From Pseudomonadota bacterium (GTDB lineage: Bacteria; Pseudomonadota; Gammaproteobacteria; Steroidobacterales; Steroidobacteraceae): a stretch of 64,000 nucleotides of DNA. Numbering within the stretch: position 1 is the stretch's first letter; each line of letters starts with the position of its first letter. The DNA is taken from positions 124,001 through 188,000 of the forward strand of contig JAFEDS010000009.1 of the NCBI GenBank assembly GCA_018241505.1, in the 5' to 3' direction. The notes beneath the pieces are model-generated. The model was not told the DNA's origin and did no database searches. It saw only the letters and a list, made by a program, of their open reading frames with translations. Positions 5,141-12,901 of the stretch are shown here, piece by piece. Made by a program: the position numbers and the translations under genes.

Positions 5141-6274
5141 GTGCCGGAGATCCTGCACCGGCTCGACGAGCTTGCGGCGATGTTTCGGGACAGCGCCGCT
5201 GAAGGGGACCGCCGCGCGCGGCTACCGAAGGCCGTAGTCCGCGCGCTCGTCCAACATGGCCTGTTTCGCCTGTGGATTCCCAGGCGTTGTGGTGGGTTTG
5301 AGCTCGGGCTGCCCGAGGCTCTGCGGATCTACGAAGCGGCCGCGCGGTTGGATGGCTCCATCGGTTGGGCTGTGATGATCGGGTCCGGCGGCGGATTATT
5401 TGCCGCGTATCTCGATCCGGCCACCGCGATCTCCATCTATGCGCGACCCGAGTCGGTGATCGCCGGTTCAGGCGCGCCAGACGGACGGGCCTTGCGCGAG
5501 AAGGGCGGCTATCGCGTCAACGGTTGCTGGCGCTACGCGAGCGGCGCTCACTACGCCACCACGTTTACTGCGAACTGCCTCGTCATGGACGGGGGAACGT
5601 TGGTCACTGGCTCCGACGGCAAACCCCTGATTCGCGCCATGGCTTTCGAGCCGTCCCAGGTGACGATTCTCCAGGTATGGGGTCCCACGGGAATGCGGGG
5701 AACCGGCAGTGAAGATTTCGAAGTGCGCGATGCGTTTGTTCCGGAGAGCCGCAGCTTCTCGCTGTCGGATGCTCCGCGTGAGACGGGACCTCTGTATCTA
5801 CTCCCCTTTAACGTGTTGACGGTGTTGCCCGTCACCGCAGTTGCGGTTGGTATTGCGCGTCACGCCCTCGACCTGTTTTCGTCGCTGGCTCATGTGAAGA
5901 AGGTGCACGGGACGGGCGACCTCCTTATGACAGATCCTGTAGTTCAGGCAACGTTTGGGGCTGCTCATGCAATCTGGCAACAGGGAAAATCAACGTTGGA
6001 TACGTTGGCGCACAAGGCATGGGACTCGGCGCGCGCTGATCGCCCGCTCGCCCCCACGGATCTTGCGGAAATCACCAGTGGCTGCGTTTTCTCCGTGGCG
6101 AAGATCCGCCAGGCAATTGCTGAACTGATGGCACTGACCGGCATGACAGCAATTCAGCCGGGATCGGAGTTGGCACGCGCATGGCGAGACTATCAGGCGC
6201 TTGCCGCGCATGGTTCGGTGTCGCCGCGGCACTTAGGCGCTGCCGGCGCGCAGTTGTTAGACGCCGGCGCGTAG
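5141..6274 (+). CDS. Acyl-CoA dehydrogenase-like flavoprotein (possible flavin-dependent monooxygenase component)
   Basis: A 377-residue protein with an acyl-CoA dehydrogenase fold: N-terminal helices ([20 protein letters not shown], ~27-46), a beta-domain ([20 protein letters not shown], ~124-143; [16 protein letters not shown]) and a C-terminal helical bundle. The WRYASG...A and MRGTGS motifs resemble class D flavin monooxygenases (HsaA/HpaB type) as well as true acyl-CoA dehydrogenases. No clear general-base Glu is visible, so the chemistry is unresolved. The start is GTG, 14 nt after the putA stop, so cotranscription with putA is likely. The end overlaps the convergent DUF255 gene by 18 nt. 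Confidence 0.75.
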
Positions 6275-8320
6275 CTTGTTGATCAGGCCGCTCAGGGAAT
6301 CAATCGGAGCGGAGCACGTACTGCCCTTGCAGACGTAGGCGACGGCACTGCCGCGAGGGGATTTCTCAGCGAGCGCGGGCGGTAGATTCTCAGCATCGTC
6401 TGGGATTGCGAGCACAATTCGGCGGGGCGCATAGAGTTTGTGCAGCTCTCTAGCCCAGGTTGTTATTTCAGCTCGGGGTCCGCGCAGGATGAGAGTCTCG
6501 GGTGGATTCAGTAGCTCATCGAGAGCGGTGAGCAAAGTTGTGTGCGCATGAGGATATTTCTCGATGCTGAGCCACGCCGCGCGTAGCGTATGTTCCGCCA
6601 CCTGGAGATAGCGTGGTTCGGCCATCAGGTGACCCATCCGTTGGAATACGAACGCAGCGATGCCATTGCCGGCCGGAGTCGCGTCATCCGCGAAGGACTT
6701 GGAGCGATGGATGAGGGACTCGTGGTCGTCGGAAGTGAAGTAGAACCCGCCGAGCTCAGTGTCCCTGAAATGGTCGAGCACGACCCGAATGAGCTCACCT
6801 GCGAATTCGAGCTCTGCGCTGTCGAACCGCACCTGTTGAAGCTCGAGGATGGCATCGACGAGGAATACGTAGTCGTCGAGGTACGCGTTAAGGTGTGCAT
6901 GCCCGTCCTTGTAGGTCGCTAGTAGCCTGCCATTGCTCCACAACCTGTTGCGAATGAAGCACAGCGCTGTTGTGGCCGACTGTGCCAGGTCGTCACGCCC
7001 CAGGGCACGCGACGCGATGGCCAACCCCCGGATCAGAAGCGCATTCCACGAGGTCAGGATTTTGTCATCGCGCCCGGGCCAGACACGCCGACTACGAATA
7101 GCCAGCAGCTTCTGCCGCGCTGACTCCAGCAGTTTTTCGTCCGTCACCGGCTGGAAGGCGTGCAGGTGCCAGCAGCCCTCGAAGTTGGCTTCCCTATCCA
7201 GACCGAAGCGCGGCGCAAACACCGCATACTCCGCCTCATTGAGCGCCCCGCGCACCTCATCGCGATCCCAAACGTAGAACTTGCCTTCGTGTCCCTCTGA
7301 GTCGGCGTCATAGCTGGAATAGAATCCACCTTCCGGCGACTGCATTTCCTTGATGGCCCAGTCAGCCGTGCGTGCAGCAATGTCCGCGTAGAACGAATCG
7401 CCAGAGGCGACCGCTGCATCCGCATACACTGCGAGCAGGGCACCGTTGTCGTACAACATTTTCTCGAAGTGGGGAATCATCCAGTAGTCATCTACGGAGT
7501 ACCGACTAAACCCGCCGCCAAGCTGGTCGTTGATGCCGCCTTCGCCCATACGACGCAACGTCAGAGTCGCCATGTACAACGCCTGCAGATCCGGCTGGGG
7601 TTGGCCGGACGTGCCGTGCCAATCCCGCAGCAGCCGCTCGATTGTTTTCGCACTGGGGAATTTCGGCGCGCGCCCGAAGCCGCCGAATTGACCATCGAAG
7701 GTGCGACCCAACAGCTCACGCGATGCTTTGAGGGGCGCGTCCGTCAGTTGCGTGTCTCCCGGCGTTGGGGGCGGATTCAGCTCATTGAAGGCTGACATCA
7801 GCGCATCGTTCTGCTGACGCAGCTCGCTTTGGTGCGTTCGGTAGTATTCGCTGACCCTGTGCAAAAGGTCGGTAAATGCAGGTAATCCGTGTCGCGCTTC
7901 CTTTGGAAAATACGTGCCGCCAAAAAACGGCTGATGACTGTCGTGCGTCAAAAACATCGTCAGCGGCCATCCGCCGGACCGCTGCGTCAGCATTTGCTGG
8001 GCGATTTGATAGATGCGATCGACGTCGGGTCGCTCTTCGCGATCGACTTTGATGTTGATGAAGCGTTCGTTGAGCACCCGGGCCACGCTCTCGTCTTCGA
8101 ACGATTCGTGACCCATGCGGTGGCACCAATGGCACGCAGCGTATCCCACGCTTAGGTGGATCGGCTTCTTCTCCAGGCGTGCACGCTCAAACGCCTCTTC
8201 ACCCCACGGATACCAGTCAACGGGATTATGAGCGTGTTGTTGCAGATACGGGCTGCTTTCCGAAATCAGGTGATTCGTGTACTTCGGTGACCCGTCGCCA
8301 TTGCGCAATTTGGGATTCAT
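6257..8320 (-). CDS. Thioredoxin-domain protein of the DUF255/YyaL (SPATA20-like) family
   Basis: A 687-residue protein with an N-terminal thioredoxin-like DUF255 domain ([14 protein letters not shown], then the CxxC motif in [14 protein letters not shown] near residue 60) followed by a long alpha/alpha six-hairpin barrel resembling N-acylglucosamine 2-epimerases. The biochemical function of this widespread family is not established. I chose ATG at 8320 because GGAGAG lies 7 nt upstream and the family N-terminus ([20 protein letters not shown]) begins soon after; the in-frame ATG at 8392 has no ribosome site. That ribosome site lies inside the coding sequence of the overlapping GIY-YIG gene. 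Confidence 0.92.
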
Positions 8321-9182
8321 TGTGATCTCTCCAGGTCCAGCCTTTGTGGCTGGGCCGCTTTCCGCTTTTGACTTCGTGCATGTGCGCAACACACAAGCCG
8401 CATACCCGGCAGAATGCCGCCAGATTGGTAAAGATAGTGAACGCTCCTCCTGGCGCTACAAAGCCGGTGTACTCCCGGGCGGGCTGCCGCCGTTTCCCGC
8501 GCATGTGCGTCCATCCACGGTGGCTGACAATCCGACCCTTTGCCATCGCCACCATGTGAGTGTTGTCGAGTCCATTGGCGCGGCAGAATTCGGCGAGATT
8601 CGTAATTGTGGGCGCGGGATTCCCCTGTGCGTCTACGAAGCCATCGTAGCTTTTGACATAGTCGCGCTTACGCACGCTGTTCTGGTGCGTCCACCCTTTG
8701 TAGGATTTCAGTTTGCTCACACCTCGTGCAAGCCGGTGCATTGAGGGGAAATCGAGGTTGTGGCTGCGGCAGAATTGCGTGAGGTTGACAATCGGAACGG
8801 CGTTGCCGTTCGGGTCCCGAAATCCGCGCCAGGTCAGCGGCGTCTTCTTTCCCTGTGAGCTAGCTAAAGCGCAGATGTTATATCCGACCTTGCGATGCGT
8901 GCAGTCGGTCCGATCAATCCACTTCTGTTCGGTATCCAGCAGTCGGTCTTCCGGGACGAACTCCAGAACCTCGAGCTCAAAGCTCAGTTCGCCATGTATA
9001 GACCAGGCGCTTTGCAGATGAGCGTTATGGTGCGTTCCTTTGCGGAGCGCGCGGCGATGTTTATCCCAGCGCTCACACAAATCCACCGCACTGCCAACAT
9101 AAATTTTACCGTCGCGTAGGCAGCGGATCTGGTAGATACCTGAAGTATCCGGAACAACCGAAGTTCGCTTTTCCGTGGCCAT
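8226..9182 (-). CDS. GIY-YIG homing endonuclease with three tandem DNA-binding modules
   Basis: A 318-residue free-standing homing-endonuclease-type protein. The GIY-YIG nuclease domain (~10-104) has GIY at 15-17, YVG at 28-30, the catalytic Arg at 38 (DLCERW) and Glu at 85 (DTEQKW). Three modules of about 50 residues follow (117-166, 178-226, 238-284). Each reads GF..P.G....I.NL..FCR..GL...HM....G....HKGWTH, a nuclease-associated repeat seen in phage homing enzymes. The last ~30 residues read through the start of the DUF255 gene in another frame. ATG 9182 is uncertain: no ribosome site is evident, and a GTG at 9227 would extend it. By eye the GC content is lower than in neighbouring genes, consistent with transfer. 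Confidence 0.88.
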
Positions 9183-9249
9183 AACCGAGAGGAGGATACC
9201 GTTATCTACACCTCCGCAGAACTTCACGTAGCAGCGGCGCCATTTGCCG

Positions 9250-9255
9250 TATAAT
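9250..9255 (+). promoter_or_regulatory. Candidate -10 element for rlmI
   Basis: A perfect TATAAT lies 38 bases upstream of the rlmI GTG start. No convincing -35 box lies 16-18 bases further upstream. The element sits between the endonuclease gene and rlmI, and may be the original promoter of rlmI. Confidence 0.4.
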
Positions 9256-9287: not shown

Positions 9288-10511
9288 GTGATCCCTTCCT
9301 CCGCGCAAATTCTTTCCGAGCCGTCCAACCTGCCGGTGCTGCGTCTTAAGCGCGGCGAGGACCGGCGTATTGTGGCCGGCCACATGTGGGTGTTCAGTAA
9401 TGAGGTCGATACCGCCAGTACGCCTCTGACTGCGTTCACAACTGGTGCACTGGTGCAGATGCAATCGCATCGCGGCCAGTTTCTCGGTTACGCCTACGTG
9501 AACCCGCACGCGCTGATTTGTGCGCGCATTGTTGGACGTGACATCGCTCATCCCGTGGATCGCGCACTGATTTCTCAGCGACTCGAGGTGGCAATCGCTC
9601 TACGCAAACGATTGACAAGGGATCCTTATTATCGCCTCGTGTTCGGTGAGTCCGACGGATTGCCCGGTCTGGTGCTGGATCGCTATGGAGACGTCGTCGT
9701 TGGCCAGATTGCCACTGCAGGCATGGAGGTACTCAAAGCGGACGTGGAGGCGGCCGTACGTGATGTGCTGAATCCGCGCACATTAGTTTGGAAGAACGAT
9801 TCCGGCGCGCGGGATCTCGAGCATCTGCCGCAGGCTGTCGAAGCAGCATTCGGTGATGTTCCGGATGAGATCGAGGTCTACGAATCGGGTCTGCGCTTCA
9901 TGGCGCCGCTGCGCTCGGGTCAGAAGACCGGTTGGTTCTACGACCAGACGGCCAATCGCCAGCGCCTGGTGCGTTACATGTGGCCCGGCATGCGTGTTTT
10001 GGATATCTGCAGCTACGTAGGCGCGTGGGCGGTCACCGCTCTCAAGAACGGCGCGGCCTCGGTGCGCTGCGTCGACTCATCGCAGGCAGCGTTGCAGGCG
10101 GCCACCCGCAATGCCCAGGCCAATGGTGTGTCCATTGAGACGACTCATGACGACGCGTTCGATGCGCTGAAGGCTATGCAGGAGCGCGAGCGCTTTGATG
10201 TGGTGATTGTCGACCCGCCGGCTTTCATCAAGCGCAAAAAGGATGTTCCGCAAGGACAGGCGGCCTACCGCAAGCTGAATCAGCTCGCGCTGGGGCTCAT
10301 GGAGGGGGACGGACTGCTGGTCTCGTGCTCGTGCTCGTACCACATGTCCGCCGACGACCTAGTGGGAGCCATTCAGTCCGCCGCGCGCCACAGCGGCCGG
10401 TTTGTGCAGATTCTCGAGGCTGGCGGCCAGTCGCCCGACCACCCGGTCCATCCCGCCGTCCCCGAAACCCGCTACCTGAAGGCGTTCTTCTGCCGCGTCA
10501 CGCGTGAATAG
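9288..10511 (+). CDS. rlmI: 23S rRNA (cytosine1962-C5)-methyltransferase RlmI
   Basis: Class I SAM-dependent rRNA methyltransferase. The N-terminal PUA domain (~15-90, LPVLRLKRGEDRRIVAGHMW) is followed by an EEHEE-type domain and the Rossmann methyltransferase domain. Visible motifs are FYDQTANRQRL, MRVLDICSYVGAWAVTA (SAM binding), VIVDPPAFIKRK and the C-terminal CSCSYHMS with the catalytic Cys. Its 407 residues are close to E. coli RlmI (396). The start is GTG; the first ~15 residues are not conserved, so the exact start is uncertain. An intrinsic-terminator-like hairpin follows immediately. Confidence 0.92.
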   Translation: MIPSSAQILSEPSNLPVLRLKRGEDRRIVAGHMWVFSNEVDTASTPLTAFTTGALVQMQSHRGQFLGYAYVNPHALICARIVGRDIAHPVDRALISQRLEVAIALRKRLTRDPYYRLVFGESDGLPGLVLDRYGDVVVGQIATAGMEVLKADVEAAVRDVLNPRTLVWKNDSGARDLEHLPQAVEAAFGDVPDEIEVYESGLRFMAPLRSGQKTGWFYDQTANRQRLVRYMWPGMRVLDICSYVGAWAVTALKNGAASVRCVDSSQAALQAATRNAQANGVSIETTHDDAFDALKAMQERERFDVVIVDPPAFIKRKKDVPQGQAAYRKLNQLALGLMEGDGLLVSCSCSYHMSADDLVGAIQSAARHSGRFVQILEAGGQSPDHPVHPAVPETRYLKAFFCRVTRE

Positions 10512-12157: not shown

Positions 12158-12901
12158 ATGGCGGCCGTAGCCCCTGTTGAGTCCGATCTGGTCACGTCCG
12201 AACTGATCGAAGTGCGCCGCTCCGGCGTACACGGTCTCGGCGTGTTCGCGGCCAAGGCCATCCGGAAAGGAACCCGGATCATCGAGTACGTGGGTGAGCG
12301 CGTCTCGCACGACGAAGCGGACCGCCGCTACGAGGAAAAGGACGCGAATGACAGCCACACGTTCCTGTTCATCGTGGACAACAAGACGGTCATCGACGCA
12401 GGCACGGACGGAAACGATGCCCGCTTCTTCAATCACTCGTGCGACCCCAACTGCGAGTCGACGGTGGAGAAGAGGCGGGTGTACATCGAGGCCATCCGCG
12501 ATATCGAGCCGGGCGCCGAGCTGACTTACGACTACCAGATCTATCGCGAGGCAGGCGATCCGGAGAACATTGACGAGGTGTTTGCCTGCCGCTGCGGTTT
12601 CGCGAATTGCCGTGGCACGATGTTGTGGCCGCAGGAAGAGCCCAAGAAGAAGCGCAAGGCGAAGAAGAAGACCGTGGCGAAGACGAAGGGCGGTGGCCAG
12701 TCGAAGGCGAAGACTGGCGCCAGCGCGCGAACGGGCGGCGCGAAGTCGAAGGGCAAGTCAGGCGCGGGCGCGAAGGGCAAAGGCAAGGCGGGCGCGAAGT
12801 CCAAAGGAAAGGGCGGGGGCAGGGCTAACGCCCGCGGCAAGTTCAAGGGCAAGTCCGCCGCCGGGCGCGGCGCAAAGAAAAAGGGCGGCCGGCGCGGCTG
12901 A
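12158..12901 (+). CDS. SET-domain protein-lysine methyltransferase with lysine-rich histone-H1-like tail
   Basis: A 247-residue protein. Residues ~14-128 are a SET domain: GVHGLGVFAAKAIRKGTRI, the SAM-binding NHSC at 92-95, and the active-site YDY at 124-126. A post-SET zinc site follows (CRC at 144-146, CRGT from 151). Residues ~161-247 are a Lys/Gly/Ala/Ser tail of AKSKGKGG-type repeats resembling bacterial histone-H1-like proteins. The tail starts with PKKKRK, identical to the core of the classical SV40 nuclear localisation signal. This could be coincidence in a Lys-rich tract. SET enzymes methylate lysine; the substrate here is unknown, and self, ribosomal or nucleoid proteins are possible. 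It sits 2 nt after thyA. Confidence 0.9.
   Translation: MAAVAPVESDLVTSELIEVRRSGVHGLGVFAAKAIRKGTRIIEYVGERVSHDEADRRYEEKDANDSHTFLFIVDNKTVIDAGTDGNDARFFNHSCDPNCESTVEKRRVYIEAIRDIEPGAELTYDYQIYREAGDPENIDEVFACRCGFANCRGTMLWPQEEPKKKRKAKKKTVAKTKGGGQSKAKTGASARTGGAKSKGKSGAGAKGKGKAGAKSKGKGGGRANARGKFKGKSAAGRGAKKKGGRRG

Follow-up and report, generated by a model that had tools for sequence, protein, structure and literature searches.

The window (the whole 64-kb stretch of DNA that was analysed) holds, between a gene of the DUF255 (Thioredox_DsbH) family and an rlmI-like methyltransferase gene, a reading frame with the make-up of a GIY-YIG homing endonuclease (Table 1). It is a frame of its own between two open genes and lies inside neither an intron nor an intein. 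No Rfam family reached the gathering threshold in the window, and therefore no known group I intron is present there; no tRNA was found in it. Elsewhere in the window, an ORF at 12158-12901 (+) resembles, by eye, a SET-domain protein that ends in a long Lys/Ala/Gly-rich, histone-H1-like tail.

Table 1. Coordinates of the nuclease locus within the window
Feature	Position	Strand	Remarks
GIY-YIG homing-endonuclease-like gene	8226..9182	-	ORF, 318 aa; Pfam, NCBIfam, phrog_2081 and 1mk0 matches
GIY-YIG catalytic domain, I-TevI-like	8871..9143	-	aa 14-104; 1mk0 fold match
Putative DNA-reader module 1	8685..8831	-	aa 118-166
Putative DNA-reader module 2	8502..8648	-	aa 179-227
Putative DNA-reader module 3	8328..8471	-	aa 238-285
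DUF255 / Thioredox_DsbH gene (thioredoxin-fold), probable partner and target	6257..8320	-	Pfam PF03190 4.6e-71
Out-of-frame overlap of nuclease 3' end and predicted DUF255 start, 95 nt	8226..8320	-	DUF255 ATG at 8320
Predicted target footprint, codons just past CxxC	8108..8122	-	H-R-M-G-H in window
CNNNG place (I-TevI-type motif)	8119..8123	-	motif absent in window
TATAC, -10-like element	9249..9253	-	putative promoter function
rlmI-like 23S rRNA methyltransferase gene, other flank	9288..10511	+	

The nuclease gene and its modules

The 318-residue product matches the Pfam GIY-YIG family (6.8e-11), the NCBIfam group I intron endonuclease family TIGR01453 (3e-20) and, by phmmer, the I-TevI catalytic domain 1mk0 (1.2e-13). 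As an earlier sequence-only reading of the locus had stated, the catalytic residues expected of GIY-YIG homing endonucleases are all present (G15 I16 Y17, Y28 V29 G30, R38 and E85). In an alignment of seven relatives G15, Y17, Y28, G30, R38, E85 and N102 are invariant, and I16 and V29 vary conservatively only.

Three near-identical modules had been described behind this domain. Their number is confirmed by phrog_2081, a phage HNH-endonuclease family that matches them in three stretches (5e-24), but at about 48 residues each they share a pairwise identity of 40-48% and are not near-identical. Most of the invariant columns fall in module 1 (seven-row alignment, one row of which lacks modules 2 and 3). 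An AlphaFold2 model built from the seven aligned sequences (mean pLDDT 78.9, pTM 0.41) consists of the GIY-YIG domain and three similar strand-helix-helix-strand (EE-HH-E) modules. Foldseek aligned its catalytic domain with 1mk0 (E 1.9e-7, rmsd 1.5, TM 0.87 on the target) and returned a weak match to the HNH homing enzyme I-HmuI (E 0.017). The modules form a separate, extended region with putative DNA-binding function. PADLOC assigned three homing-endonuclease models to the nuclease and, more weakly, UzuA to its catalytic domain, and a defence role was set aside on this basis.

A base composition poorer in G+C than that of the neighbours, also put forward earlier, was borne out only mildly (0.569 in the nuclease gene, 0.617 in the window and 0.593 in DUF255), and the argument built on it was overstated. 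Third-position G+C of the nuclease is clearly below that of DUF255 in five carriers (G002, G001, G413, G723 and G415), somewhat below in G414, hardly in G000 and not in G005. With the deficit this uneven among carriers, low G+C is a weak sign of foreign origin here.

Carriers and their position at DUF255

Fourteen carriers were recognised, all in draft assemblies (the contigs with the G414 and G415 copies measure 272 and 163 kb): seven in the window's gammaproteobacterial family, six in Chloroflexota and one in Acidobacteriota. Among relatives, 6 of 119 genomes match the nuclease, the window's own included, and a seventh carrier (G050) keeps a relic of the last module only; the gene is thus not found at the locus in all relatives. 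Among Chloroflexota, 7 of 350 genomes match at 1e-15, with modules in three (G413, G723 and G588), the last two added by whole-genome searches, and a relic in G500 was found later as a further carrier. In Acidobacteriota 1 of 347 genomes matches (G415). Two narrow peptide patterns run against 84,980 species genomes gave nine loci, which is a lower bound; two are Chloroflexi, one is an Acidobacteriota record and one a Litorilinea record, presumably of the Chloroflexota. The carrier count leaves out matches confined to the catalytic domain (G688, G457, G612, G516 and elsewhere in G588), which had no DUF255 in the stretches covered. No other remnant upstream of DUF255 stood out in 58 other Chloroflexota and Acidobacteriota loci; a weak hint of one at locus L148 was not borne out.

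The copies range from intact to vestigial. A full-length ORF exists in seven carriers (G000, G005, G002, G001, G413, G414 and G723); the remainder comprise a one-module ORF (G415), a frameshifted copy (G062), three relics (G050, G588 and G500), a broken copy with pieces on two contigs (G416) and a copy cut by a contig end (G009). In the shortened copies of G415 (L088) and G500 (L190) the ending of module 1 is joined to the 3' end of the gene, which looks like deletion by recombination between modules. The second piece in G416 (L117, C84:1-360), containing module 1 and part of module 2, sits at a contig end away from DUF255, next to what appears by eye to be the N-terminus of a C5-cytosine methyltransferase. 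It may represent the rest of the broken L116 copy; the two pieces are not joined. The G415 genome also contains a second, distant GIY-YIG catalytic domain (L118, C30).

All 14 carriers have the nuclease gene, or what is left of it, immediately 5' of DUF255 and in the same orientation, and its frame overruns the predicted DUF255 start by 4 to 104 nt, the start codons being inferred and ambiguous in G002 and G009. The overlap measures 4 nt in G001, G062 and G050; 8 nt in G413, G414, G415, G416 and G723; 14-26 nt in G588, G009 and G002; 59 nt in the G500 relic; and 104 nt in G005. In the window it takes up the last 95 nt of the nuclease gene, a feature overlooked in the sequence-only reading. The predicted start falls 7-16 nt past the KGW[T/K] codons of module 3 (or of its relic), and exactly 13 nt past them in 9 of 14 carriers. 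Chance proximity to DUF255 is ruled out, since the arrangement recurs in every carrier of all three phyla.

In the window's family the other flank of the nuclease is rlmI, oriented divergently. Six family copies occupy the same rlmI-DUF255 junction; in G009, the seventh, the contig breaks off on the rlmI side. Comparison of this junction among relatives, proposed earlier as the way to the empty site, found 51 of the 57 family junctions with both genes empty and six occupied (one by a relic, one by the frameshifted copy). Measured from rlmI codon 12, the gap in empties spans 60-160 nt in 35 cases; 5 gaps are shorter and 11 longer, the largest being 402 nt. The sequence TATA[C/G/A] occurs in this gap in 47 of 51 empties; it precedes the nuclease at the usual distance in G000, G005 and G062 and at other distances in G001 and G002, and was not found before the G050 relic. 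The insert therefore seems to lie between the promoter and the DUF255 start codon. Between phyla, upstream DNA gave no match better than E 0.009 (G009, G416 and G723 offer little or none), so DUF255 is the shared landmark. A reservation on its being the sole one comes from G414, where a distant rlmI-family gene (32% identity) lies two genes upstream.

Changes in DUF255 behind the CxxC motif

The DUF255 proteins of carriers and empties were compared by their deviation, column by column, from the commonest residue of each group's empties (13 carriers, 103 empties, 322 columns). The top three columns are contiguous and stand right behind CxWCH, with uncorrected p values of 3.7e-9, 3.8e-6 and 1e-3 (deviant rows in carriers and empties: 13/13 vs 18/103, 7/13 vs 3/103 and 7/13 vs 12/103). 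A ten-column block at this footprint deviates by 0.33 in carriers vs 0.08 in empties, and in neither adjoining block is there an excess (0.10 vs 0.08 and 0.29 vs 0.29). Other blocks with an excess lie in the first 30 columns (0.28 vs 0.18, 0.35 vs 0.20) and further on (0.68 vs 0.52). A four-column span in the CHWCH-VM[E/A] region ranked first of 319 in Chloroflexota and Acidobacteriota (6 carriers, 54 empties) and again in the family (7 carriers, 49 empties); random equal-sized sets of empties reached the observed maximum in 2 of 2000 draws for the other phyla and 0 of 2000 for the family. HVM[E/A] occurs in 54/54 empties and 0/6 carriers of the Chloroflexota and Acidobacteriota set (Fisher 2e-8), and two later-found empties lack it.

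At the nucleotide level, numbered from the G of GYxxCHWCH and with G500 added (111 empties), p was below 1e-4 at -1 and at six positions from +27 to +37 (best 8e-7); a weaker excess was seen at other positions, +17 and +44 among them. Family carriers' DNA lies below the empties' consensus in all segments of the first ~230 nt of DUF255 (p 4e-4 to 4e-3) and hardly deviates beyond them, so the DNA signal in the family is broader than the protein footprint. CNNNG, the motif given for I-TevI in an excerpt of PMC2988022, stands at +23 in 70/109 empties vs 1/14 carriers (Fisher p 4.9e-5, uncorrected, a dozen places being listed). Arginine replaces valine in seven carriers and isoleucine in one, and six keep the valine; in five of these six CNNNG is lost through the preceding cysteine codon, TGT. 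As a target change, the loss of CNNNG in carriers is suggestive only.

The CxxC site itself is conserved: empties from two phyla share as much as 94% identity across 63 nt. Similarity at the site is lower between carriers from different phyla than between empties (0.48 vs 0.62 at +24 to +42), which suits independent changes, and no co-converted DUF255 tract was detected in the cross-phylum comparison of carriers and empties at the site. A reverse search of the same 350 Chloroflexota genomes for CHWCH followed by R or S matched 14 genomes. Four of the matches lie in DUF255 (G588, G500, G434 and G496) and the rest elsewhere; G588 is the known relic and G500 proved to hold a previously undetected one directly before the DUF255 start. 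No relic was found in G434 or G496, which are alike at the site and have arginine there. Carriage in two of four far exceeds the carrier frequency of the sample, though the numbers are small.

The changes in carriers' DUF255 are thus seen by column, span and nucleotide tests, and the shared ancestry of the family carriers weakens these footprint statistics. Rather than escape of a target site, the changes could reflect a lineage effect or relaxed selection, which is unlikely though a serious contender. Family empties near carriers have the same changes (G038, G040, G047, G018, G015 and others), clusters of seven neighbouring family empties reach a maximal excess of 0.45 vs 0.48 observed, and the broad ~230-nt deviation of the family DNA would also suit such an effect. 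An independent-pairs test, of low power, found 4.3 pairs on average changing the same way and 0.2 the other among five supported pairs (median p 0.125), and 2.3 vs 0.0 for the HV change (median p 0.5). Against a lineage effect, the flanking protein blocks show no excess, though some other blocks do; the same four-column span also ranks top in a non-overlapping set of rows from the other two phyla; and the G500 relic was discovered through its changed codons. The case for target-site escape rests mainly on the recurrence of that span in disjoint phyla. The altered family empties are read as former carriers; no relic was found in them.

Movement, proposed mechanism and known systems

Between the two nearest carriers (G000 and G005) the nuclease has a dS of 1.30 and DUF255 one of 1.36, and the nuclease dN/dS of 0.13 indicates purifying selection, which bears harder on the modules than on the catalytic part (dN 0.118 vs 0.265). 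These values would fit domestication, in which the nuclease or its modules have come to work for the host, say by regulation near DUF255 within a translationally coupled operon of two genes, and the overlapping frames in all 14 carriers suit the same idea. Domestication is nonetheless rather improbable: the gene is rare and patchy, it decays to relics, it has moved between phyla and it keeps its catalytic residues, and the altered residues past CxxC are not predicted by domestication itself.

Distances between carriers bear on descent. G000 and G001 are 55% identical in the nuclease and 65% in DUF255, and G000 and G413, from another phylum, 59% and 44%. By maximum likelihood the nuclease/DUF255 distance ratio comes to 1.7-2.3 for the 6 pairs inside the genus, to 0.44-0.73 for the 16 pairs that set the family against the other two phyla, and to 0.50-0.82 when carriers of those other phyla are compared with each other. 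The DUF255 tree (116 rows) has the window's family as one side of a branch and the carriers of the other phyla among Chloroflexota and Acidobacteriota rows (neither phylum being one clade), and at least 11 changes of carrier state are needed; the Chloroflexota and Acidobacteriota carriers are isolated among empties, except for the pair G723-G588. Because the ratio is about 2 within the genus and about half between phyla, and given the placements in the tree, the nuclease apparently crossed phyla without DUF255. An ancestral gene inherited vertically, lost many times and never mobile would account for the six family copies at one junction and for the agreement of dS in G000 and G005, yet it is contradicted between phyla, where nuclease divergence is about half that of DUF255, although within the genus it is about twice as great, and by the isolated carriers of the other phyla; it is accordingly held to be very unlikely. 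Within the family, old residence with losses is possible. Transfer of the nuclease and DUF255 together as an operon, suggested by their adjacency in every carrier, is ruled out for practical purposes by the distances and the DUF255 tree, in which carriers' DUF255 groups with that of non-carriers from the same phylum or from its tree neighbours and shows full inter-phylum divergence.

The best explanation, with a probability of roughly 0.7, is a free-standing, intronless GIY-YIG homing endonuclease, chromosomal and dedicated to DUF255, whose carriers are protected by changes in the target. The comparative evidence thus favours the earlier proposal of a phage-type homing endonuclease outside intron or prophage, with no Rfam family in the window, that targets a neighbouring gene; that interpretation held in part, its arguments from module identity and G+C having been overstated, and the unvarying location of the insert at DUF255 across phyla and the DUF255 changes go beyond it. 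The comparison of genomes supports the domain make-up, the fixed position at the DUF255 start, the patchiness, the decay, the apparent movement between phyla and the candidate target-side changes. Mechanistically, the modules would bind DUF255 DNA and the GIY-YIG domain would cut DUF255 alleles within or close to the codons that follow CxxC, some 200 bp inside the gene. Repair from the carrier allele would then copy the nuclease gene into the cut allele, and carrier alleles would be spared by their changed post-CxxC codons. Insertion between promoter and start codon, with a frame running over the DUF255 start, would leave DUF255 readable, so the host could tolerate the insert, and the conserved CxxC codons would let one enzyme recognise DUF255 across phyla.

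Several observations speak against this homing reading: the family's DNA deviation over ~230 nt, the relatedness of the family carriers with its neighbour-cluster and independent-pairs results, the six carriers that keep valine, the arginine of G434 and G496 without a relic, the altered family empties, the failure to detect a co-converted tract, the distant rlmI-like gene upstream in G414, the excess in other protein blocks, and the purifying selection and DUF255-like dS that would suit a domesticated gene as well. A further proposition, on which the balance is even, is that the element needs no intron, intein or phage to persist in chromosomes because it has specialised on the CxxC codons, with spread across phyla and with escape changes that outlast the nuclease as scars. 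Under this proposition the nuclease would cross phyla because CxxC DNA is conserved between them, hosts would escape by altering otherwise near-invariant codons, and the scars would reveal past carriage.

In passages of PMC2988022 and PMC6083498, intronless homing is known mainly from phages. Here, a probably selfish nuclease gene sits at the very start of a widespread housekeeping gene and apparently reached the same spot in three phyla, and the DUF255 of carriers bears what look like escape mutations where the enzyme may cut. If a chromosomal nuclease keeps to a single cellular gene across three phyla and changes in that gene point to a candidate target, then how such elements live in bacteria (arrival, spread, escape, decay and loss) could be tested from sequence. 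The case would also supply a nuclease with a predicted natural target, a prediction that can be tested directly. A caution follows for enzymology, as odd residues beside an active site may record past parasitism and not altered enzyme function.

The literature search found no paper on a GIY-YIG homing endonuclease paired with a DUF255 or thioredoxin domain-containing protein gene, and among the matches listed no title or abstract start describes a DUF255-bound GIY-YIG nuclease. No near relatives in phages, viral contigs or plasmids were seen among the matches listed (best 25 of 271 phage rows), which include one phage record at 84% query coverage and 29.5% identity; the other phage, viral and plasmid matches listed are of partial coverage at 30-51% identity. 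On viral contig L092 (1801-2565) a one-module GIY-YIG ORF runs over the 3' end of a gene that by eye resembles a phage terminase, a distant phage relative with the same neighbour-overlapping habit, and on the Methylobacterium plasmid pAMS5a (L185, 3986-4780) a GIY-YIG gene overlaps the end of a PhoH-family gene.

Among known systems, I-TevI, the GIY-YIG endonuclease of the T4 td intron, shares the catalytic domain (phmmer 1.2e-13, rmsd 1.5, TM 0.87). I-TevI is intron-encoded, however, whereas no Rfam intron family was found with the window's nuclease, and its DNA-binding domain (1i3j) matches at E 4.7 only, the C-terminal part here consisting of three EE-HH-E modules. The phage endonucleases of phrog_2081 have a related reader module (three stretches, 5e-24) but are described as HNH enzymes, not GIY-YIG. 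F-CphI of cyanophage S-PM2 is likewise a free-standing nuclease that lies beside a conserved gene and cuts alleles of its neighbour; according to extracts from PMC6083498 it differs in having an Endonuclease VII-type catalytic motif and in shielding its own target by an intron, not by codon changes. The T4 seg and mob genes, as portrayed in sections of PMC2988022, stand alone between conserved genes, often overlap the neighbour's frame and use existing promoters, and their cleavage sites lie away from the insertion point. In their intronless homing the neighbour is cut in genomes without the gene, and the gene is copied in by repair (PMC2988022, in part). The window's nuclease resembles them as a stand-alone gene beside a conserved gene whose frame it overlaps, and its parts would fit intronless homing of the seg/mob kind. 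The same sections present seg and mob as phage genes inherited in mixed infections, whereas the nuclease described here resides in bacterial chromosomes, at the same host gene, in three phyla.
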